A DNA stretch of 64,000 nt from NCBI GenBank assembly GCA_019650355.1, contig BOWX01000001.1, positions 302,127 to 366,126 on the forward strand, in the 5' to 3' direction. Made by a program: the position numbers and the translations under genes. This document shows, one piece after another, positions 21,424 to 34,077 of the stretch (position 1 is its first letter; each line of letters begins with the position of its first letter). The DNA is from Fidelibacterota bacterium. GTDB lineage: Bacteria > Fidelibacterota > Marinisomatia > Marinisomatales > Marinisomataceae. The notes beneath the pieces were generated by a model. That model had not been told where the DNA came from, searched no databases, and was given only the letters and a program-made list of their open reading frames with translations.

Positions 21424-23037
21424 ATGTCTGAATTTAATTCAAAATTCATAAAATACTTATGTCTTTTACTCTTTTTAAAAGGGTGTGCTTACTTTAATAC
21501 ATTCTACAACGCAGAAGAGCACTTTGATCTTGCTGAAAGAATTAGAATCGAAAACTTAGGAAATCAGATTCCTTCTAGAGCAATTCAAGAGTATGGAAGA
21601 GCAATAGATAAATCAGAAAAAGTTCTTAGGGAGTATTCTGATAGTAGGTATGTTCAAGATGCTAAGTTATTAAAAGGAAAATCTCATTATTTTAGACGAG
21701 AGTATGATAGTGCAGTGCTCATTTTCAATCAACTGATTCAAGAAGAGGGGTTTGATCAGGAAGCAAGATATTGGTTAGCACTATGTAAATGGAGAGATTT
21801 AAAGCCTCAGCCTGCAATTAATGATTTAAAGAACTTAATTAAGAAGTAGATTCAGAAGAATTTATATCAAGAATATTTTCTTTCACTTGGTGAAATTTAT
21901 TTAAGTATTGATAACTCGGAAGATGCTTACAATAATTTCAATAAGGGAGCAAATCTTAGCAAAAATCGACTATTAAGAGAGCAAGTATATTTTCAAATTG
22001 CGAAATTTCATTTGAAACAAAGATTTTGACAACGCATTGGAAAGTTATCAAAAAGTATTAAGTAACACAGTTTCAATTACCAGAATTCAAGACTCAAACT
22101 TAAAAATTGTTCAAATCTATCGTTTAAGAGGGGAGCTTGAAAAGTCAGCTAACAGAATTCAGGAATTGATTATTGATGAAGATTTTAGCTCTATCAAATC
22201 TGATTTAGATTTAGAGCTTACAAAAATCGAGTTTGACAGAGGAAAAGTAGATTTTGCTATCCAAAATTATGATCGAATAGGAAAAGATTATCCAAACACT
22301 CAAACTGCTATTGAATCATATTATCTATTATCAGAGATTTATCTTAGAGCTCCAAATGTTGATTTTGAAAAAGTACAATTTTTTATGAATGAATCAATGA
22401 GACAGAATACAAACTCTCCCATAAAACAAATCATAGATAAGAGGAGAAATGAAGTTGAAAAGTTGATCAAGCTTGATGCTGAATTAACACAACTTAAAGA
22501 TTCTGAAAGAGTAGAAAGTTTATTTCTTGCTGGACAGATATTGGCTTTTAATCTTTCAAAATATGAAGAATCAAAAATGTATTTTGAAGAAGTTGTAATA
22601 AAACATCAATCTAGCGATTATTTTCCTCGATCACTTTTTGCTTTATATACGATTAACTTGAAGATTGGCAGTGAGGAATATTTAACTTATAGAGATAAGA
22701 TCTAAACAGATTATCCAAACTCTGATTTTGCTAAATATATTATCAATTCTGAAGGTATTGATATAGAGCATTTACCTCAAAAACTTTATCACAAGCAGAG
22801 CAACTAAAAGACAAAGATTTAAATAAATCGTTAATGCTCTATAGAAAAGTTATGAATATTGATAAATCTTCTGATTCGTCAAAGATTGCAGCTTATTTTT
22901 TAGGTATGCATTTTGACTATGAAGTATCGCTTATAGACAGTGCTAAATATTATTATGAATTTTTATCAGAAAATTTTCCAAGTTCATCTCAAGCTGAAAA
23001 TGCAATCAAAAGATTAGAGGTGTTAAATGCTGAATAA
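21424..23037 (+). CDS. TPR-repeat outer-membrane lipoprotein (multiple frameshifts)
   Basis: The start is ATG 21424 (a GTG lies directly before). A lipoprotein signal ends LLLFLKGC and the mature protein begins CAYFNTFYNAEEHFDLAER, a start I associate with large TPR lipoproteins of the FCB group. TPR-like helices then run through at least four frames (shifts near 21848, 22030, 22704 and 22780) to KRLEVLNAE at 23037, about 535 residues in all. Repeats such as FPSSSQAENAIKRLE and YPNTQTAIESYYLLSEIY support BamD-like helical hairpins. Probable envelope scaffold; partner unknown. Confidence 0.75.
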
Positions 23038-24088: not shown

Positions 24089-24521
24089 AATTCTATTAAT
24101 TTCCCTAGTTTTTATCACTGCTTGTGGATCAAATATTGCATATGGTGATTATGTCGACACAACCGGTTGGTCAAGAAAGCAAATTGAATCAATTAAAAAT
24201 CACCCTAAAACTCAAATTGGCATAGCATCTTACTATGGAAAGAAGTTCCATAAAAAACGTACTGCTAATGGAGAAATTTTCAATATGTATAAAGTAAGCG
24301 CTGCTCATAAATCATATCCGCTTGGAACAAAAGTTAGGGTTACAAACCTTGAAAATGGCAAATCAATTAAGCTTGTAATTAATGACAGAGGACCATTTGT
24401 TAGGGGTAGAATAATTGATCTTTCATATAAAGCTGCAAGAAAATTAGACTTTGTAAATCAAGGAACTGTTAAAGTTCGAATTGATGTAATTCGCTTAGGT
24501 GATAACAAGTATTATAAATGA
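24081..24521 (+). CDS. rlpA: RlpA-like lipoprotein (double-psi beta-barrel)
   Basis: A 146-residue lipoprotein: signal ending LVFITAC, then the RlpA core QIGIASYYGKKFHKKRTANGE, YPLGTKVRVTNLENGKS and VINDRGPFVRGRIIDLSYKAA. RlpA proteins bind or cleave denuded peptidoglycan glycans at division sites. No C-terminal SPOR domain is present, so this is the short form. It overlaps pyrD upstream and the lipid-kinase gene downstream by 4 bases. Confidence 0.92.
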   Translation: MIKILLISLVFITACGSNIAYGDYVDTTGWSRKQIESIKNHPKTQIGIASYYGKKFHKKRTANGEIFNMYKVSAAHKSYPLGTKVRVTNLENGKSIKLVINDRGPFVRGRIIDLSYKAARKLDFVNQGTVKVRIDVIRLGDNKYYK

Positions 24522-25408
24522 GAAAAATTTGCTGTATAGTTAATCCAGTAAGTGGTTTAAAGAAATCACTTAAAGTATATTATGAAGCAAAAAATCATTT
24601 TGAAAAATCTAACTTTAATACATCATTATTTGTTTCAGAATATCCAAATCACATAAAAGATTATGTATCAAAAATTGATAAAAATAGTTTTGACAGATTA
24701 ATAGTTTTTGGTGGAGATGGAACGATTAATGAAGTTGTAAATGGATTACAAGATTCAAATAATCTTCTCAGTTTTAAGCTTGGAATTGTTCCAACCGGTT
24801 CTGGTAATTCAGTAGCCCATGATACTGATTTATTGGATGTGAAAGATGCGATTAATAAATGCGCAGGTGAGAATACAATAAAAATGGATGTTAATCAGGT
24901 TGATTTTGATTCCTTTTCACAGCTAAGTGTAAGCGTTTTAGGATGGGGTATGTTTTCTTTTGGTAACATAAGAGCAGAAAAATTGAGATTCCTTGGTCCA
25001 ATAAGGTATGATGTAGCGTCAATAATTACGCTTATAGAAAAGAAAATCCATAAAGCTGAAATTCAAGTAGATGGAGAACAAAAAATGCTAGAATGCGCTT
25101 TTATTGTTGGTTGCAACAGTAAGCATACAGGTAAAGGGATGATTGTTGCTCCTAACGGTGGTTTTTCTGATAAAAAAATCGATCTTATAACAGTAGGTAA
25201 AAATGTTAATAGGTTTCAAGTTTTTGAGGTTTTTCAAAAAGTTTATAAAGGTACTCATGTAAATTTACCATTTGTTGAGAATATAAAAGTTGATTCCTTT
25301 TCAATTGATCCTGGAGAAATGAGTTTTTACAATATTGATGGAGATATTGTCGAGAGTCAAAAAGCCTCTGTAAGAGTAGTTCCAGAAGCAATTAATCTTT
25401 TGATATAA
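24518..25408 (+). CDS. Diacylglycerol/sphingosine kinase-family lipid kinase
   Basis: A 296-residue kinase of the DAGK catalytic family. The N-terminal CCIVNPVSGLKK and the nucleotide motif RLIVFGGDGTINEVVNGL are diagnostic. GIVPTGSGNSVAHD is the second conserved block, and the C-terminal lobe ends FYNIDGDIVESQ. It would phosphorylate diacylglycerol or a related membrane lipid, consistent with cdsA following 24 bases later. Confidence 0.88.
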   Translation: MRKICCIVNPVSGLKKSLKVYYEAKNHFEKSNFNTSLFVSEYPNHIKDYVSKIDKNSFDRLIVFGGDGTINEVVNGLQDSNNLLSFKLGIVPTGSGNSVAHDTDLLDVKDAINKCAGENTIKMDVNQVDFDSFSQLSVSVLGWGMFSFGNIRAEKLRFLGPIRYDVASIITLIEKKIHKAEIQVDGEQKMLECAFIVGCNSKHTGKGMIVAPNGGFSDKKIDLITVGKNVNRFQVFEVFQKVYKGTHVNLPFVENIKVDSFSIDPGEMSFYNIDGDIVESQKASVRVVPEAINLLI

Positions 25409-25431: not shown

Positions 25432-26094
25432 ATGTCATCGCTACAGTCTAGAATTTTAATTGGATTAGTTGGTTTCCCTTCAGTTATTTATGTCATACTG
25501 AATCATATTCTAGTTTTCAATATGATTGTTGTGTTCTGCTTTGCATTAGCATTTAGAGAGTTTATTAAGATTGTCAGTAATTTTAATAATCGTACTTATT
25601 GGTTGTTTTTCGGAACGATTTACATCTTTGGGAGTATGATGTCTTTGATTTATTTGAGAAGTATTGATAGTCTTTTAAGTTCTCCATTTACTTTTCTGTT
25701 GTTTGCTGGAGTCATGATTAATGATTCAATGGCCTTTATTGTTGGTAAGACATTTGGAGGACCAAAAATTCTTCCAACTATAAGTCCTAAAAAAACGTAT
25801 TCAGGTTTATTTGGAGGGTTGATAGGATCTATAGTCTTCATATATTTGTGTGAGCTTTATTTTTTAAGCGGATTTGAATTTACTTTAACGGAAAGAGATC
25901 AATATTTCCTTGTTTTTGTGTTCAATATTATTGGATTTATTGGCGATAGTTTTGAATCGTTTATTAAAAGAAAAGCTAATGTAAAAGATTCTTCAGGCTT
26001 GCTTTTGGGTCACGGAGGAATGTTAGATCGATTAGACTCTTTAATATTGACAACACCAGTAACAATGTTTTATGTTATTGCGTATTATTTATGA
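25432..26094 (+). CDS. cdsA: Phosphatidate cytidylyltransferase
   Basis: A 220-residue multi-pass membrane enzyme making CDP-diacylglycerol. The C-terminal signature is clear: INDSMAFIVGKTFGGPKILPTISPKKTYSG, then IIGFIGDSFESFIKRKANVKDSSGLLLGHGGMLDRLDSL with the catalytic aspartates. It is shorter than E. coli CdsA (285), lacking some N-terminal membrane segments, as often seen outside Proteobacteria. The stop overlaps the next start (ATGA). Confidence 0.92.
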   Translation: MSSLQSRILIGLVGFPSVIYVILNHILVFNMIVVFCFALAFREFIKIVSNFNNRTYWLFFGTIYIFGSMMSLIYLRSIDSLLSSPFTFLLFAGVMINDSMAFIVGKTFGGPKILPTISPKKTYSGLFGGLIGSIVFIYLCELYFLSGFEFTLTERDQYFLVFVFNIIGFIGDSFESFIKRKANVKDSSGLLLGHGGMLDRLDSLILTTPVTMFYVIAYYL

Positions 26095-27917
26095 GTAAAA
26101 AAATTAAATCAATTTTAGCTACCGATTGTGGTAGTACTACAACTAAAGCTGTCTTAATTGAGTGGAAAGAAGACAGATACCGCCTTACTTTCAGAGGAGA
26201 AGCTCCAACTACAGTAGAAGCACCATTTGAAGACGTTACCAAAGGTGTTTTGAATGCTGTTATGGAAGTTGAAGAGCTTTCTGGGAGAACAATATTAGAT
26301 GGAGATAAAATTATCACTCCTGATGACGGATCAAAAGGTGTGGATATTTATGTATCAACCAGTTCAGCTGGTGGAGGTCTTCAAATGATGGTAGCAGGTG
26401 TTGTTAAGTCTATGTCAGGAGAAAGTGCTGAAAGAGCTGCTTTAGGAGCAGGGTCAATTGTTATGGATGTACTTGCTTCAAACGATGGAAGACTTCCTCA
26501 CGAAAAGATTACAAGAATTAGGCAACTAAGACCTGATATGATTCTCTTATCTGGAGGAACAGATGGCGGTACGACTACTCATGTCATGGAATTAGCAGAA
26601 ATATTAGCTGCTGCAAATCCACGTCCTCGTCTTGGACAAAATTATAAACTACCAGTTATTTATGCTGGAAACAATAAAGCACAAGACTCTATAAGAGAAA
26701 CTCTTGGTGAGATTTCTGATTTGGATATTGTAGATAATATTCGACCAGTTTTAGAGCAAGAAAATCTTGAACCATCTCGAGATAAAATTCATGACTTGTT
26801 TATGGAACATGTTATGGCGCAAGCACCAGGATATAAAAAACTTATGTCATGGACGGATGCTCCTATTATGCCAACACCTGGAGCTGTAGGTTCATTGATT
26901 GAGATGATAGCTAAAAAAGAAAATATTTCTGTTGTTGGTGTTGATATTGGTGGAGCTACCACTGATATTTTTTCAGTTTTTGAAGGTAAATTTAACAGAA
27001 CTGTAAGTGCTAATCTTGGAATGAGTTATTCTATATGCAATGTTTTAGCTGAGTCAGGATTAGATAATGTTTTACGTTGGGTTCCTTTTGATATTGATCG
27101 AAGTGAATTAACAAACCGAATTGGTAATAAAATGATTAGACCTACAACAGTTCCTCAATCTCTTGAAGAACTAGTTATTGAACAAGCAATTGCCCGAGAG
27201 GCGCTTCGTTTGTCATTCATTCAACATAAAGAATTTGCAACCAGCTTAAAAGGAGTACAATCAGAAAGAACTATTTCTGATGCATTTGAACAATCCTCAA
27301 GTGGTCAATCATTGGTTAATATGATGGACTTAGATTTGCTTGTAGGTTCTGGAGGTGTATTATCTCATGCTCCAAGAAGACAACAGTCAGCAAGAATGTT
27401 AATTGATGCATTTATGCCTGAAGGTATCACTCAGTTGGCAGTTGACTCAATATTTATGATGCCTCAATTAGGTGTTTTAGCAAATATCGATAAAGATGAA
27501 TTGAAAGAAGATGCATCTCAAGCCGCTTTGGAAGTATTTGATAATGATTGTTTGATACGTTTAGGAACATGTGTAACTCCTGTAGGAAATGCTAAGCCAA
27601 ACTCTAAAATGGCTGATGTCACTTTAACTTTTGGTGATGGTTCTGTAAAAGAAATTGAGATAAATGAAGGTTCTCTTGAAATGATGGAACATCCTTATGA
27701 GGAAGTTAAGGTGCATATTAAGCCTGCAAGAGGTATTGACGTAGGAGCTGGAAAAGGTGAAGAATTAGAATCTGTAATCTATGGTGGAGTTGTTGGGCTA
27801 ATTTTTGATGGAAGAAATAGACCTATTACCTTATCTAAAGAATCAGATCAAAGAATTGATAGTTTATTAAACTGGTCAAAAGCTGTAGATGAATATCCTA
27901 AAGGAGAAATGTTTTAA
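26091..27917 (+). CDS. MutL/GlmL-family ASKHA ATPase, first gene of membrane operon
   Basis: A 608-residue protein of the family usually named glutamate mutase L, an actin-like (ASKHA) fold unrelated to mismatch-repair MutL. The phosphate-1 motif ILATDCGSTTTKAV is at the N terminus. ILLSGGTDGGTTTHVMELAE, VVGVDIGGATTDIFSVF (phosphate-2 type) and VGSGGVLSHAP (adenosine-type) follow. No glutamate mutase S or E subunit or other B12 enzyme is encoded nearby; the gene heads a run of membrane proteins instead. It probably uses ATP to act on that membrane assembly (inference). It abuts the next gene with a 1-base overlap. Confidence 0.85.
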   Translation: MSKKIKSILATDCGSTTTKAVLIEWKEDRYRLTFRGEAPTTVEAPFEDVTKGVLNAVMEVEELSGRTILDGDKIITPDDGSKGVDIYVSTSSAGGGLQMMVAGVVKSMSGESAERAALGAGSIVMDVLASNDGRLPHEKITRIRQLRPDMILLSGGTDGGTTTHVMELAEILAAANPRPRLGQNYKLPVIYAGNNKAQDSIRETLGEISDLDIVDNIRPVLEQENLEPSRDKIHDLFMEHVMAQAPGYKKLMSWTDAPIMPTPGAVGSLIEMIAKKENISVVGVDIGGATTDIFSVFEGKFNRTVSANLGMSYSICNVLAESGLDNVLRWVPFDIDRSELTNRIGNKMIRPTTVPQSLEELVIEQAIAREALRLSFIQHKEFATSLKGVQSERTISDAFEQSSSGQSLVNMMDLDLLVGSGGVLSHAPRRQQSARMLIDAFMPEGITQLAVDSIFMMPQLGVLANIDKDELKEDASQAALEVFDNDCLIRLGTCVTPVGNAKPNSKMADVTLTFGDGSVKEIEINEGSLEMMEHPYEEVKVHIKPARGIDVGAGKGEELESVIYGGVVGLIFDGRNRPITLSKESDQRIDSLLNWSKAVDEYPKGEMF

Positions 27918-29041
27918 TGGCTCATTCATATACTCCCGGTCTTAAAGTTTTAAAGAAAACAATTTTTAAAAAAGAGAGAATTTTACCTCTTAAAGGTGAT
28001 GTGCTTGTGAAAAGTGGAGACCAATTAACTCCTGATACAATTGTTGCATCTACAAACCTTCCAGGAAATGTTCAAATGCTTAAAGTAAGTAATATATTGA
28101 ATATTGATCCTAAAGATGTTGTGGAGGCTCTTCAGGTAAAAGAAGGGCAGGAAGTTAAAAAAGGCGATATTATTGCTGAAACATCTGGCATTTTTGGAAT
28201 GTTTAAATCATCTGTCGAAAGTCCAGTTGATGGTACTATTGAATCTATTTCTCAAAGCACTGGAAGGGTTGTTGTTAGAGAAGCTCCTATACCTGTTGAG
28301 GTTGATGCCTATGTGAGCGGTGTTGTTGATGAGGTTGTTGAAAATGAAGGAATAGTATTAAAGTCTAATGCCGCATTTATTCAAGGAATTTTTGGAATTG
28401 CAGGAGAAAAAAGAGGCGATTTATTACTAGTTTCATCTGGTCCTGGCGAAGAACTCACTGCAGATCAAATTACAGGCGATATGAAAGGAAAAATTTTAAT
28501 AGGAGGATCTTTTCTTAGTCTAGATGCTTACAAGAAAGCTTTAAGTGTTCAAGTTGCTGGAATTGTAGTTGGAGGCTTTAATTATTATGATTTGAAAGCT
28601 GTTCTTGGATATAATTTGGGTGTTGCAATTACTGGTACAGAAAAATTAAATACAGCTCTTATTGTAACAGAAGGTTACGGTTCTATTCCAATGAGTGAAG
28701 CTACTTTTTCATTACTGAAAGAAAATGATGGCAAAGCTGCTTCAATAAATGGTGCGACACAAATCAGAGCTGGAGTTATAAGGCCAGAGATAGTTATCCC
28801 AATTGATGCTGGAAATACAGATGATGATTCAAGCTCAAAAATGCCTGAAGGCATTCAAGAAGGCAGTACTGTGAGAGTTATTAGAAGTCCTAATTTTGGA
28901 AAAATTGGAAAAGTAATTTCATTACCAGCTGAGTTGAATAAGATGGAGTCAGAGACAATGGTTCGTGTTGCAGAAATTAACATAGATGGAAAAAATATTT
29001 TGATTCCAAGAGCTAATTTGGAGATGGTAGAAACCGAATGA
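27917..29041 (+). CDS. Soluble protein with lipoyl-like and KOW-like segments, operon gene 2
   Basis: A 374-residue protein without signal or membrane segments. The N-terminal half has hairpin repeats of the barrel-sandwich type (VLVKSGDQLTPDTIVAS, EGQEVKKGDIIAE, SPVDGTIESISQSTGRVVV), like lipoyl/biotinyl domains but without a biotinylated MKM lysine. A middle alpha/beta part (KGKILIGGSFLSLDAYKKAL, IAGIVVGGFNYYDL) follows. The end has a KOW-like loop (STVRVIRSPNFGKIGKVI). I know no defined function for this arrangement. It overlaps both neighbours by 1-4 bases. Confidence 0.75.
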   Translation: MAHSYTPGLKVLKKTIFKKERILPLKGDVLVKSGDQLTPDTIVASTNLPGNVQMLKVSNILNIDPKDVVEALQVKEGQEVKKGDIIAETSGIFGMFKSSVESPVDGTIESISQSTGRVVVREAPIPVEVDAYVSGVVDEVVENEGIVLKSNAAFIQGIFGIAGEKRGDLLLVSSGPGEELTADQITGDMKGKILIGGSFLSLDAYKKALSVQVAGIVVGGFNYYDLKAVLGYNLGVAITGTEKLNTALIVTEGYGSIPMSEATFSLLKENDGKAASINGATQIRAGVIRPEIVIPIDAGNTDDDSSSKMPEGIQEGSTVRVIRSPNFGKIGKVISLPAELNKMESETMVRVAEINIDGKNILIPRANLEMVETE

Positions 29042-29310
29042 ACGGCTCATTAAAGTTAGAAGATAAAGCATTTCTAACTAAGCTTGCCGAGGAAGTCAAG
29101 GCAAGAAGAATGACAACTCCTGCTATATTTTTTTTAGAAATGATGAGACCTTTGAACTTTGTTGGAAGTCAAGCTATGATTTTTTTTGGGCCAATAATTA
29201 GTGCATTTGTCAAAACAGATGGTTATTATAAGGCTGCTGAAATTTTTGAAAATCATAACAGCGTAGAATTTTTAATTCAAGAAATTGAGAGATTAGACAA
29301 AAATGAATAA
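29038..29310 (+). CDS. 90-residue conserved operon protein 3
   Basis: A small, probably helical protein, start MNGSLKLEDKAFLTKLAEEV, with a moderately hydrophobic centre (FVGSQAMIFFGPIISAFV) and an acidic C-terminal helix. It could be peripheral to, or a single-pass part of, the membrane complex encoded around it. It overlaps the gene before by 4 bases and the next by 8, so it is translated in step with them. Family not recognised. Confidence 0.65.
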   Translation: MNGSLKLEDKAFLTKLAEEVKARRMTTPAIFFLEMMRPLNFVGSQAMIFFGPIISAFVKTDGYYKAAEIFENHNSVEFLIQEIERLDKNE

Positions 29311-30178
29311 TAAGTTCACAGTATATGCAGGAGGAATAGTTGGTATCATTTTACTTACTTTTCTGCTATCTGTGATTCCTGATTCATTTAATTTTTTCAG
29401 AGAAGAAAAATCAGCAATGTTCGTTTTTACCTTAATTGTAATAATGATTATGCTATATGAGGTAAAGCTCGCAAAATCTTCATCAGAACCAACTTTCTTA
29501 AGAACCATTCCAGGACTTAAAGCTGTAGAAGAAGCTGTTGGTAGATCTACGGAAATGGGTAGACCAATTCTTTACGTTCCAGGAATTATGGATATGAATG
29601 AGGTAGAAACTGTTGCAGGTGTAGTTGTGCTTGGTCACGTTGCAAATATGACAGCTCAATATGAAACCGATTTAGATGTACCTGTTGCTAGAGCTATTGT
29701 GATGCAATCTGCTAGACAAGTAACTAAAGAAGCTTATTTGACTCAGGGTAGACCAGAAATGTATAATGAAGATATGGTCCACTATATTACTGATGATCAA
29801 TTTGCTTATGCTGCGGCAGTAAATGGAATAATGCAAAGAGATGAGCCAGCAGCATGTTTATATATGGGTAAATTCTTCGCTGAATCATTATTGTTTGCTG
29901 AAACAGGTAATAGTATTGGTGCTATTCAAATTGCCGGTACAGGCTCACAAACTCAAATACCGTTCTTTGTTACTGCTTGCGACTACACATTAATGGGTGA
30001 AGAGTTTTTTGCTGCAAGTGCTTATTTATCTAAAGAGCCAGAATTAATTGCTGGTATTACTGCTCAAGATATTATTAAAGTTATTCTAGTAGGATTTATT
30101 TTACTATCAATCGTTTCAAGAGCATTTTTTGATTTAGGTGTTACTGATTTTAATCTTATAACATGGCTGGGATTATAA
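29303..30178 (+). CDS. Membrane protein resembling DUF6754, operon gene 4
   Basis: A 291-residue protein with two N-terminal membrane segments (about residues 9-26 and 38-53) and one near the C terminus (IIKVILVGFILLSIVSRAF). Between them is a soluble region with ILYVPGIMDMNEVETVAGVVVLGHVA and QIAGTGSQTQIPFFVTACDYTLMGEEFFAASAYLS. From memory this matches the family listed as DUF6754, which has no described function; the name should be checked. The next gene starts 1 base after its stop. Confidence 0.7.
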   Translation: MNNKFTVYAGGIVGIILLTFLLSVIPDSFNFFREEKSAMFVFTLIVIMIMLYEVKLAKSSSEPTFLRTIPGLKAVEEAVGRSTEMGRPILYVPGIMDMNEVETVAGVVVLGHVANMTAQYETDLDVPVARAIVMQSARQVTKEAYLTQGRPEMYNEDMVHYITDDQFAYAAAVNGIMQRDEPAACLYMGKFFAESLLFAETGNSIGAIQIAGTGSQTQIPFFVTACDYTLMGEEFFAASAYLSKEPELIAGITAQDIIKVILVGFILLSIVSRAFFDLGVTDFNLITWLGL

Positions 30179-30179
30179 T

Positions 30180-31080
30180 ATGTTGTTGAAGAGATATATC
30201 CCAATAGCTATTGTTGCTTTTTTTGGAGCTCTAACTTTAAGCGCATGGTTTATCGACAATGAAACAATCGAAACATTTGCCAATGATGATGCCACTCAAT
30301 TCTTTGATATTATCGCAGCATTTGCTGTTTTCCTTGGTGCTTTAAATTCTATTAAAGTTACAGTTTATAAAAGTGTTAAAACAGCAATCAGGTTGGATAT
30401 ATAGTGCTATTGCTATTGCCTCCTTCTTTTTTGCATTTATTATTGGTTTCTTTATTAGAGGTGCGTATTTCGTTGGCGAAGATGTATACTTTAGTCAAAA
30501 AGCTGCTGAAGCTGCAATTTTGAGCTCAGGATCATCTGAGGTCGTTGTTCCTGTTGATTGGGGAGCACACGTTCAAACGGACGGTAGTTTATTCCAATGG
30601 ATGTTTAAATACATCTTTTCACCGCTATCAGCAACTATGTTTGCTTTACTAGCTTTTTTTGTTGCGTCTGCATCATTTAGAGCATTTAGAGCAAGAAATT
30701 TTGAAGCATCATTATTATTAGTAGCTGGTATAATAATCATGCTAGGAAGAGTGCCAGTTGGAAGTTTGATTTCTAGTTGGACAATTATGTACATTTTAGC
30801 TTTTAGCATTGGTATTGGCATTAATACTTACGTGAAAAACCGAAATATGGTTTTTGGATGGATCCTTGGTAGCTGTGGTTTAATTACTGGATTTGGAATG
30901 ACTATGGGTTGGCCAATTGATCAGCCGGCAATTTTCTTTTTACCTGCTTTACAAGAATGGATTTATCTTGTGCCTAATCTAGCTGGTTCAAGAGCAATTT
31001 TAATTGGTATAGGACTTGGAATCGTCGCAACAAGTCTTAGATATATTTTTGGTTTAGAAAAATCATATTTAGGTGAATAA
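30180..31080 (+). CDS. Multi-pass membrane protein, operon gene 5 (one frameshift)
   Basis: Two overlapping frames (30180-30404 and 30373-31080) give one protein of about 300 residues if one base is corrected near 30380-30400. Six or more membrane segments are visible, including PIAIVAFFGALTLSAW, IIAAFAVFLGALNSI, IASFFFAFIIGFFIRGAYF, SATMFALLAFFVASASF and AILIGIGLGIVATSL. An extracytoplasmic loop (YFSQKAAEAAILSSG) lies between. Function is unknown. It shares one base with the next gene. Confidence 0.65.
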
Positions 31081-31946
31081 TGAAATTTTTAGAAGATATA
31101 ATATTAAGGCTTGGTGCAGTAGATAGAAGAGTAATCTTTGTTTTAATTGGTTTGGCTGTTCTCATTCCGTTATTAACGCCAATAAGCTTACCAGTTAGAG
31201 AAACACCTACTACTGTAAAGTTTTATGATGGAATTGATAATATACCAAAGAATTCAAAAGTATTAGTTTCGTTTGATTACGGTCCAAGTACTCGTCCTGA
31301 AATTCATCCAATGAATGTTGGAGTGTTACGTCACATGCTACGCAATGGTCATCAGATTTACATATCATGTTTATGGCCGGATGGAATTTACATGGCTTTA
31401 GATGCTTTAGAAGAAATTACCGATGAAGTTAATCCAGATAATGTATCTACATTTGATATCAAAGAATATGAAGACTATATCTTATTAGGTTATAGACCTG
31501 GAGCTGAAGCAGTGATTAAAGGATTGGCAAGCGATTTAAGAAAAGTATATACTGTCGACGCAAATGGAAACTTCATAGATGACATTGAAATGATGGATGG
31601 CATAAAAAACTTGAACGATTTTGCATACATATATAGTGGATCTGCTGGCTATCCTGGTACATTTGAATGGGTCAAGTATGGTGGAGATCCAACTGGAGTT
31701 CCTATGTCTTCAGGTACCACATCAGTTCAGGTAAATGAAGTTATTCCTTATGTTCAAACAGGGCAGTTAATAGGATTGTTAGCTGGTATGCCTGGTGCTG
31801 CAGAATATGAAAAATTAATCAATGTACCTGGAATCGCAATTCAAGGTATGGCTGCACAGTCATTTGCTCACATTGTTATAGTATTTTTTATTGTTTTTGG
31901 TAATTTGGCATTCTTTTTAAAGCAGAGAAGAGATAGGAAGTATTAA
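31080..31946 (+). CDS. Bitopic protein with large extracytoplasmic domain, operon gene 6
   Basis: A 288-residue protein anchored at both ends: segment about residues 18-36 (VIFVLIGLAVLIPLLTPI) and a last one near 262-282 (FAHIVIVFFIVFGNLAFFL). The region between has an alpha/beta pattern (NSKVLVSFDYGPSTRPEIHPMN, YEDYILLGYRPGAEAVIKGLA, YIYSGSAGYPGTFEWV, LIGLLAGMPGAAEYEKL). It looks like a sensing or binding domain outside the membrane. No family is recognised. It is followed one base later by another membrane protein. Confidence 0.7.
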   Translation: MKFLEDIILRLGAVDRRVIFVLIGLAVLIPLLTPISLPVRETPTTVKFYDGIDNIPKNSKVLVSFDYGPSTRPEIHPMNVGVLRHMLRNGHQIYISCLWPDGIYMALDALEEITDEVNPDNVSTFDIKEYEDYILLGYRPGAEAVIKGLASDLRKVYTVDANGNFIDDIEMMDGIKNLNDFAYIYSGSAGYPGTFEWVKYGGDPTGVPMSSGTTSVQVNEVIPYVQTGQLIGLLAGMPGAAEYEKLINVPGIAIQGMAAQSFAHIVIVFFIVFGNLAFFLKQRRDRKY

Positions 31947-31947
31947 T

Positions 31948-32724
31948 ATGAGTTTTTCAGCAATATTAGGAGCATGGATTGCCGCGTTTTTAACGCTTGG
32001 TATTTTTTCTTATCTTTATAGGGACAATCCATTTTATAAGATTGCTGAGCACGTATTTGTTGGTGTATCTGCTGCATATGTAGCGGCAATTAGTTTTTGG
32101 ACACAAATTTATCCAAATCTTTTTGGACGACTATTTCCAAAAGATGGTCCGCTAGCTTTTACTGGTTTAGAGTTTGATTTTAATCATGAATTTAATATTC
32201 TTTATTTATTCCCAATGTTATTGGGTATAATGATGTTGATAAGCGTCTTCCAACAATTTAATTGGATGGCACGTTGGGGAATTGCTTATACAGTTGCTAT
32301 TGCTGCAGGATTGAAAGCATTTGGTTATTTAAATTCAAATGTTCTTAATCAGGTTAAAGCTAGTTCTGTGGACATATTTAGTGGTTCTTTACCACTTTTT
32401 AGCTTAAATGGAGATAGTGTTTTTAATAACATTGTCCTTGTTGTTGGTACTTTAAGTGCATTGATGTACTTTTATTTTTCTAAAGAGCAAACAGGAAACT
32501 TTGGAAGATTTACAAGATTAGGTATTTATTTCCTTATGGTAAGCTTTGGAGCATCGTTTGGATTCGCAGTCATGGGAAGAATTTCATTACTAGTTGGAAG
32601 ATTTAACGATTTAATTGAATATTCATCTGCTGATTATAATTATGCAACTCTTGGCGTCTTGGTATTCATTATTGTTACTTTAGGATTCTGGTCATTCCAA
32701 AATCCTGAACGAAAGGAGAACTAG
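31948..32724 (+). CDS. Polytopic membrane protein, operon gene 7
   Basis: A 258-residue protein with about six membrane segments (AILGAWIAAFLTLGIFSYLY, FPMLLGIMMLISVF, GIAYTVAIAAGLKAFGYL, IVLVVGTLSALMYFYF, FLMVSFGASFGFAVMG and YATLGVLVFIIVTLGFWSF). It is the last of the seven-gene block headed by the MutL-like ATPase; the next gene is an unrelated metabolic enzyme 3 bases further. Unknown function. Confidence 0.7.
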   Translation: MSFSAILGAWIAAFLTLGIFSYLYRDNPFYKIAEHVFVGVSAAYVAAISFWTQIYPNLFGRLFPKDGPLAFTGLEFDFNHEFNILYLFPMLLGIMMLISVFQQFNWMARWGIAYTVAIAAGLKAFGYLNSNVLNQVKASSVDIFSGSLPLFSLNGDSVFNNIVLVVGTLSALMYFYFSKEQTGNFGRFTRLGIYFLMVSFGASFGFAVMGRISLLVGRFNDLIEYSSADYNYATLGVLVFIIVTLGFWSFQNPERKEN

Positions 32725-32727
32725 TAA

Positions 32728-34077
32728 ATGAACAAATCTGATATTAGAAAAGTTATCAGCGAAAGTATATTAGCTGATGGGATGTCACCTGTTATAGATC
32801 TTAAAAAATCTCACGGATCATGGCTTGTTGATAAGGTTACTGGAAAAGAATATTTAGATTTATTCTCAATGTTTGCTTCTTTATCAGTTGGTTATAATCA
32901 TCCATATGTCGTAGAACAATCAGAAAGATTAAAAGTTGCTGCAATAAATAAGCCTACAAATTCTGACGTTTATTCTCAAGAAATGGCTGAGTTTGTTCAT
33001 ACATTTAAAAGAGTTGCTCAACCAGATTATTTACCTTTAACATTTTTTATTGAAGGCGGAGGTTTAGCTGTAGAAAATGCTTTAAAAGCAGCATTTGATT
33101 GGAAGAGAAGAAAAAATTTAGCTAAGGGAAGTTCTGCCAAAGGTGAAAAGGTTATTCATTTTCAACAATGTTTTCATGGTAGAACAGGTTATACAATGTC
33201 TTTAACTGACTCTCCAGATAAACGTAAAACAATGTATTTCCCAAAGTTTGATTGGCCTAGAATTACCAATCCAAAAATAACTTTCCTATTGAAGATAATT
33301 TAGATAACATATGAGCTTGAAAATAAAGCAATTGCAGAGATTAAAAAATGCGATTAATGCAAATCCTGATAATATTGCCTCTATCATATTGAGCCAATTC
33401 AAGGTGAAGGTGGTGATAACCATTTTAGATGTGAGTTTATGCAAGGATTAAGACAGATTGCAGATGAAAACGATATTATTTTAATTTATGATGAAGTTCA
33501 AACAGGTGTGGGAGTAACTGGAAAAATGTGGGCTCATCAGCATTTTTCCAATGGAGACTGTTCAACTAGCGAATGTCAATGTGGAGATGGTTTGTTAGCT
33601 AAGCCTGATATCATATCTTTTGGTAAAAAAACTCAGGTTTGTGGTGTTGCTGCAAGTACTAGATTTGATGAAGTTGAGGACAACGTTTTTCGTGAGTCAT
33701 CTCGAATAAATTCTACATGGGGTGGAAGTTTAGTTGATATGGTAAGATTAACAATTTACCTAGAGCTTATTGAAAAAGAAAATCTTGTAGAAAAAGCTGC
33801 GCAAACAGGATTATTTTTACAGGAAAGCTTACATAATCTTCAAAATGAATTTCCTACTTTAGTTTCAAATGCAAGAGGTAAAGGATTATATTGTGCTTTT
33901 GATTTACCTTCAAGTGAAGATAGAGATAAGCTAGCTAATTTATTACTTGATGAAGGATCTATTTTATTAGGTTCAGGAAATTATTCTATTAGATTTAGGC
34001 CTCATTTAAATGTTACTGAAGATGATATCAACTTCGGTATGGATTGTTTTAGAAAAGCTCTTAACAAATTATCATAA
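32728..34077 (+). CDS. lat: L-lysine 6-transaminase (frameshifts near 33295-33420)
   Basis: PLP-dependent enzyme moving the epsilon amino group of lysine to 2-oxoglutarate. An excellent Shine-Dalgarno (AAGGAG) precedes the ATG. The N-terminal half has LFSMFASLSVGYNHP and FIEGGGLAVENALKAAFDWKRRKN. The C-terminal half has LIYDEVQTGVGVTGKMWAHQHF, the PLP-lysine motif DIISFGKKTQVCG and STWGGSLVDMVR; these spellings are specific to Lat. The gap between the halves reads EPIQGEGGDNHFR in a third frame, so two indels are likely. The reassembled length of about 450 is normal. Confidence 0.9.

Follow-up and report, generated by a model that had tools for sequence, protein, structure and literature searches.

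The stretch of DNA analysed here (the window, 64,000 nucleotides from a genome of the phylum Fidelibacterota) carries, on its forward strand at positions 26091 to 32724, seven consecutive genes that encode an actin-fold ATPase, two further soluble proteins and four membrane proteins. We call them g1, g2, g3, g4, g6, g7 and g8. The phylum appears under older labels as Candidatus Marinimicrobia or Neomarinimicrobiota, and the window's genome spans 786 kb and is 73% complete. Eight open reading frames (ORFs) are visible at this locus but the true number of genes is seven: the ORFs at 30180–30404 and 30373–31080 (g5 and g6) are a single gene encoding about 300 amino acids in relatives, here called g6; in the window, a single additional base near 30347–30349 breaks this gene in two, as judged against two relatives (81% and 78% DNA identity). 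As small indels also break the neighbouring genes that we take to be those for an aminotransferase (33278–33387), rsmI (34388) and tmk (35042), this frame break is probably an assembly error. Further small indels against the relatives, at 22002 and 22777, break a TPR-like gene and probably have the same cause.

The original prediction described seven abutting genes. All of its named features were found in place, with junctions of −8 to +1 bases within the set, once the split gene is counted as one. Dense packing by itself is weak evidence at this locus, because all 14 junctions over 15 genes here fall between −23 and +23 bases; what exceeds chance is recurrence.

The first gene, g1 (26091–27917), encodes a MutL/GlmL-like protein of the ASKHA class (608 amino acids) that belongs to the Pfam MutL family (PF13941; 417 bits over residues 8–470 against a gathering cut-off of 27 bits) and continues for about 140 residues past the Pfam match as a C-terminal extension. 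The two phosphate motifs read earlier in this protein, DCGSTTTK and DIGGATTD, are indeed present, and each is exact in 77 of 78 relative g1 ORFs of at least 560 amino acids (72 of 73 when only distinct ones are counted), whose median length is likewise 608 amino acids. On the strength of these conserved phosphate 1 and phosphate 2 motifs, g1 is likely to be an ASKHA ATPase, with ATP hydrolysis a prediction. The protein falls below the cut-offs of three curated models, namely GlmL (NF040745; 223 bits, cut-off 475), the glmL family (TIGR01319; 161 bits, cut-off 204) and Or-4 of ornithine degradation (NF040744; 210.5 bits, cut-off 600), and no Pfam or NCBIfam row for PilM or GspL was found at E 1 or better.

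Soluble and membrane components

The product of g2 (27917–29041) is a soluble protein with an N-terminal barrel-sandwich (biotin/lipoyl-like) domain, a putative carrier domain that passes the PF00364 cut-off only marginally (23.1 bits, cut-off 22.1), and a weak C-terminal KOW-like match that lies below its cut-off. Residues ~44–121 also resemble the barrel-sandwich domains of RnfC, NqrA and efflux adaptors, a weak likeness that is under the curated cut-offs throughout (17 bits for rnfC, cut-off 245.95; 15.7 bits for NqrA, cut-off 450). The adjacent g3 (29038–29310) encodes a 90-amino acid soluble protein without a Pfam family. In Zixibacteria-type genomes, a protein of ~255–275 amino acids with a signal-like start is encoded between g1 and g2 (seen at L116:275-1099, L120, L121, L129, L130, L132, L134, L168 and L180); the two that were scanned gave no Pfam match.

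Amongst the membrane proteins, g4 (29303–30178) is a clear member of DUF6754 (PF20539; 362 bits), with a predicted cytosolic Rossmann domain (residues ~65–244) between transmembrane (TM) helices. The reconstructed g6 (30180–31080) is a polytopic protein with 8 predicted TM helices in one relative (L034), g7 (31080–31946) has two TM helices and a predicted extracytoplasmic Rossmann domain (residues ~41–255), and g8 (31948–32724) is polytopic with 6 predicted TM helices. Nothing over a Pfam cut-off was found for g3, g7, g8 or the split g5/g6 ORFs of the window, and a Pfam scan of 24 to 55 relatives each of g3, g6, g7 and g8 revealed no consistent family, only sporadic matches, confined to between one and three members. 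The strongest among them was a weak match to the ABC TMD0 model in 3 of 37 g6 members (best E 2e-6).

In the AlphaFold2 models of g7 (pLDDT 92.8) and g4 (pLDDT 81.3), a Rossmann-like domain precedes a TM helix. In 131 g7 proteins, lysine and arginine residues number on average 3.1 ahead of the first TM helix and 4.1 beyond the last, compared with 1.4 and 1.8 where these helices face the domain; in g4, the mean is 4.2 between the TM helix and the domain against 1.5 before that helix (counted in the 92 of 151 proteins that have the start motif). On account of this positive charge bias, we favour a predicted topology in which the Rossmann domain of g4 lies on the cytosolic side of the membrane and that of g7 on the outer side. 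Several g4 relatives of other phyla have a longer N-terminal part, which the g4 protein of the window lacks; four of them have a signal-like start, and an FN3 match, weak and just under the Pfam cut-off, was found in three of seven long g4 proteins tested.

Recurrence and block evolution of the unit

Loci were collected by scanning genome contigs with a DUF6754 alignment, 581 of 587 stretches encoding relatives, and the best 80 of at least 587 were used. By record title, these 80 are drawn from Fidelibacterota, Zixibacteria, Latescibacteria, Eisenbacteria, Gemmatimonadetes, Acidobacteria, Planctomycetes, WOR-3/Stahlbacteria, Calditrichota, Riflebacteria, Coatesbacteria and Electryoneota. Gene content was counted in loci that extend 7 kb to either side of g4 (42 of the 80 were too short and were left out). 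Within that distance, all 22 Fidelibacterota-type loci contain g3, g6, g7 and g8, and 21 contain g1 and g2, whilst the 16 loci from elsewhere contain g6 and g7 in 15 cases, g8 in 14 and g1, g2 and g3 in eight each. A single-contig genome of the same phylum (G017; 2,788,509 bases) has the complete set in order; cdsA lies immediately upstream, and an additional ORF separates g2 from g3. The conserved co-occurrence of all seven that was to be looked for is thus seen in Fidelibacterota-type loci and, in part, in other phyla: the seven genes recur as one unit, together or apart within a genome, across many bacterial phyla.

Co-occurrence extends to whole genomes. DUF6754 is found in 121 of 199 genomes of the phylum (61 of the 93 of good quality) and MutL passes its cut-off in 127 of the 199; g1 and g4 occur together in 119, g4 alone in two, g1 alone in eight and neither in 70 (Fisher p 8e-42, shared ancestry ignored). 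A Planctomycetota-type sample of 119 genomes gives a similar picture, with g4 in 31 and g1 in 33 (both 27, g4 only 4, g1 only 6, neither 82; p 7e-17, ancestry again ignored). All 80 genomes sampled from the phylum of a genome titled Candidatus Zixiibacteriota encode DUF6754, in one to six copies each. In the window's genus, DUF6754 is found in 17 of 21 sampled genomes of 0.7–1.0 Mb. Of 20 further genomes chosen from among the 80 g4 loci, 19 have a MutL match over the cut-off, including those where it is not adjacent to g4 (in one of the 19 the match is in pieces); the exception is G199. All 12 g4 genomes tested for g2 and g7 have a single g2 and from one to five copies of g7. In three genomes (G398, G380 and G317), g7 is distant from g2 and g4 or on another contig. 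That g7, g2, g4 and g1 are retained together even when unlinked points to a single functional unit, although these counts are uncorrected for ancestry. In one genus of the phylum (family f3, genus g6), several genomes of good quality lack both DUF6754 and MutL, which looks like loss at the level of a clade. One Riflebacteria genome (G213, locus L112) has a 618-amino acid MutL protein and two short ones (open frames of 452 and 478 amino acids); the gene for the 452-amino acid protein adjoins an alanine-racemase-like gene.

The four membrane genes evolve as a block. Up to three g4-g6-g7-g8 modules lie in tandem in Zixibacteria, and trees of the four proteins agree over 115 distinct modules (Mantel r 0.69–0.90; shuffled maximum 0.14). 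Paralogous modules pair as blocks in 611, 630 and 645 of 756 comparisons, against 352 by chance. The triplication looks old, to judge from the g4 tree, in which the first, second and third g4 copies of three loci (L092, L098 and L103) fall in separate groups, albeit with uneven support (100/98, 80/42, 98/52) and some long branches.

Natural fusions join g1 to g2 (L107) and g7 to g8 (L126), and seven more open frames of 977–1031 amino acids in the phylum are possible g1–g2 fusions, judged by length only. Synteny across phyla, co-occurrence when unlinked, block duplication and natural fusions bear out the expectation that the genes form one system. Two unusual arrangements were also seen: in one genome (L109:9506-11890 and L124), a DUF6754 copy is fused in frame to an S49-type peptidase, with g6–g8 not beside it, and in another locus (L100:13263-15130 and L135) genes for NfeD, Band 7 (SPFH) and a third protein are inserted between two g4–g8 modules.

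Importer genes beside the unit

One family of neighbouring genes follows g8 in some Fidelibacterota and, in Riflebacteria, precedes g4. In seven of eight loci scanned with Pfam it combines ABC_tran with the oligopeptide C-terminal region (OppD/F type), the exception being a DrrA-like ABC protein (L041). At that locus and five others (L187, L188, L215, L216 and L217), proteins of ~308 and ~252–259 amino acids are encoded after g8, as if an exporter-type pair stood in place of OppD; the ~308-amino acid protein is a DrrA-like ABC ATPase by Pfam in L041, the sole one scanned. Upstream, L041 and L060 have a gene for an SBP_bac_5 protein followed by two for BPD_transp_1 permeases (OppB and OppC) between cdsA and g1.

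Importer genes were then sought by similarity in 43 Fidelibacterota regions, comprising 40 fetched for their spread over genera and L183–L185. In 16 regions, which represent seven families of the phylum, at least one such gene is no more than four ORFs away from the unit; nine regions have oppA-oppB-oppC before it and 11 have an OppD/F-type gene after it. Where both are present (L060, L184, L186, L189 and L202), the unit sits between the permease and ATPase genes. The gaps are 36 to 224 bases before g1 in those cases where the permease is directly adjacent, and 48 to 498 bases after g8. A first set of 41 regions, partly the same contigs as the 43, had importer genes by the unit in nine. In Riflebacteria, genes for a binding protein, OppD and OppF precede g4 in two of three loci, the third beginning at g4. 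No importer gene was found beside the unit in G017. The importer link is therefore real in part of one phylum and repeated in a second, and was not seen elsewhere.

A candidate membrane machine and its alternatives

Quite possibly, the seven genes encode a single inner-membrane machine, likely driven by the actin-fold ATPase g1 acting via g2 and g3 on the products of g4, g6, g7 and g8. We infer a physical complex, ATP-driven motion, a relay across the membrane and a cargo. Cytosolic g1, by way of g2 as a soluble adaptor and together with g3, would act on the membrane module of four proteins: binding and hydrolysis of ATP would change the shape of g1/g2, g2 would dock on g4 at its inner Rossmann domain, and the motion would pass through the TM bundle to the Rossmann domain of g7 outside. 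Where a lineage has several modules, all of them would be served by one shared ATPase and adaptor. Since some lineages have the unit within or next to an operon for an Opp/Dpp-type importer, a first guess at the cargo would be peptides or cell-wall fragments handled at the membrane. A cultured member of the phylum, Fidelibacter multiformis IA91, is described as living on muropeptides (PMC11652737).

Tentatively, then, the unit could represent a new class of ATP-driven envelope machine, in which one ASKHA ATPase and a barrel-sandwich adaptor work up to five modules with Rossmann domains on both membrane faces and, in some lineages, feed peptides or cell-wall fragments to an oligopeptide importer. 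We rate the system as new, its mechanism being inferred and the MutL/GlmL proteins of glutamate mutase being already known. Four of the seven parts have no consistent curated family and no described function was found for the system; DUF6754, PF13941, TIGR01319 and 'GlmL family protein' were unnamed in the literature searched, most subscription papers and bioRxiv preprints lying outside its scope. If the genes do encode one machine, then many uncultured bacteria have a core envelope process that has escaped notice, perhaps because DUF6754 is missing from well-studied species (0 of 14 well-known control genomes).

Several observations weigh against this proposal. DUF6754 is absent from 32 of the 93 good-quality genomes of the phylum, and g4 occurs without g1 in 2 of 121 g4-positive genomes of the phylum and 4 of 31 Planctomycetota-type ones; one multi-module genome (G199) has no g1, in an assembly with gaps. 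Outside Fidelibacterota, half of the loci counted have no g1 or g2 within 7 kb of g4. A third motif tried in g1, GSGG, is found in 71 of the 78 relative ORFs. Charge bias is a weak test of topology, and sequence profiles do not support homology between g4 and g7. Importer genes are absent beside the unit in all 84 loci of other phyla (some genomes counted twice), the scanned proteins of the window gave no SBP_bac_5, BPD_transp_1 or ABC_tran row at E 1, and placement of importer genes within Fidelibacterota may be an inherited order, like that of cdsA.

That the unit is itself a transporter is possible but doubtful. The products of g6 and g8 would form a pore for a solute or ion, g7 would be the outer receiver and g1/g2 would energise or gate the pore; several modules would mean several substrates, and the Opp-type genes would encode a partner for the same substrate. 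Carriers of the ECF type share an energy unit, and the presence of one g2 with one to five copies of g7 follows that pattern. The two conserved polytopic proteins, the importer genes around the unit in two phyla and the weak TMD0 matches in g6 point the same way, but the four membrane proteins belong to no consistent transporter family, the importer carries its own ATPase genes, and the 84 loci without importer genes again count against the idea. A proteostasis or microdomain system allied to SPFH, NfeD and S49 proteases, with the ATPase remodelling membrane proteins, is unlikely: it would account for the DUF6754–S49 fusion and for the NfeD and Band 7 genes between modules, but each case is confined to one genome, and single-sequence seeds gave no second among the loci then fetched. 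The original prediction had envisaged an ATP-driven membrane complex, perhaps for transport, lipid handling or membrane organisation. An ATPase not tied to a mutase and a predicted complex agree with this, and of the suggested jobs transport gains most, by way of the importer neighbours.

Lipid handling fares poorly. In the window, cdsA (25432–26094, forward strand) overlaps g1 by 4 bases and is preceded by a YegS/DAGK-type lipid kinase gene (24518–25408, forward strand), an adjacency that had been taken as suggestive of envelope lipid work, though perhaps due to chance. A complex for phospholipid synthesis or lipid handling with these two proteins is nevertheless improbable. Of 22 Fidelibacterota-type loci, 18 have cdsA no further than 7 kb from g4, and in 28 of 32 it lies at most about 300 bp upstream of g1, but neither cdsA nor the kinase gene is within 7 kb in any of the 16 loci outside, so that the adjacency fails as a general clue. 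Amongst the loci examined, the cdsA/lipid-kinase link is confined to Fidelibacterota, and the kinase is a neighbour in part of that phylum only. Importer genes, where they precede the unit, separate cdsA from g1: of 11 loci with oppA-oppB-oppC at this place, 10 have cdsA at a greater distance, upstream of these genes, and the remaining one, L202, showed no cdsA (L060 and L192 belong to the same contig).

We consider it very improbable that g1 is a reactivating chaperone of a B12-dependent enzyme, with the membrane genes incidental or concerned with cobalamin handling. The MutL/GlmL family name suggests such a role, as does a B12-binding protein (mostly 137–148 amino acids) that passes its cut-off in 19 of 24 genomes of the genus. 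Against this, the original view that the ATPase has no link to glutamate mutase held up: the E subunit (PF06368) passes its cut-off in none of 199 genomes of the phylum, the window's included (21 weak partial matches lie below it), so the ATPase gene does not always accompany a B12 mutase. No B12-binding match was found in the window's own, incomplete genome. In two loci read, the B12-binding protein resembles what we take to be the small subunit of methylmalonyl-CoA mutase. A MeaB-type match is strong in 19 of the 24 genus genomes, again including the window's (20 over cut-off, one of them weak). Because both proteins occur in the genus, B12 chemistry is present there, away from this operon and with its own partner, whilst g1 tracks the membrane proteins instead and is under all three GlmL-type cut-offs.

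The machine proposed here can be set beside several known systems. With the GlmL/MutL accessory protein of glutamate mutase and with Or-4, g1 shares its Pfam family (residues 8–470) and the ASKHA phosphate motifs, but it differs in its extension of ~140 residues (median length 608 amino acids, compared with 452 and 478 for the two short MutL proteins of G213), in its scores against the curated models and in keeping company with membrane proteins rather than a mutase. Opp/Dpp-type oligopeptide ABC importers are linked by their genes, which stand around the unit in some Fidelibacterota and at two loci of Riflebacteria, but no ABC importer family is consistent amongst the seven proteins and such genes are absent beside 84 of 84 other loci. 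The stomatin/SPFH–NfeD–S49 membrane proteases are connected through one fusion and one insertion between modules, whereas SPFH, NfeD and S49 lie outside the conserved unit, each seen in one genome. Nor do we class the unit with the PilM and GspL inner-membrane platforms of type IV pili and type II secretion, because g1 matches none of their families. No pilin, secretin or traffic ATPase is found among the annotated neighbours (many neighbours being left unannotated), and to our knowledge these platforms have no Rossmann domains of the g4/g7 kind. Their working principle does appear comparable to that of a g1-driven machine: in PilM–PilN–PilO–PilP and GspL–GspM, a cytosolic actin-fold protein or domain is described as engaging TM proteins with extracytoplasmic domains, and the type II secretion platform also includes the multispanning GspF (PMC4471445, PMC3815138).

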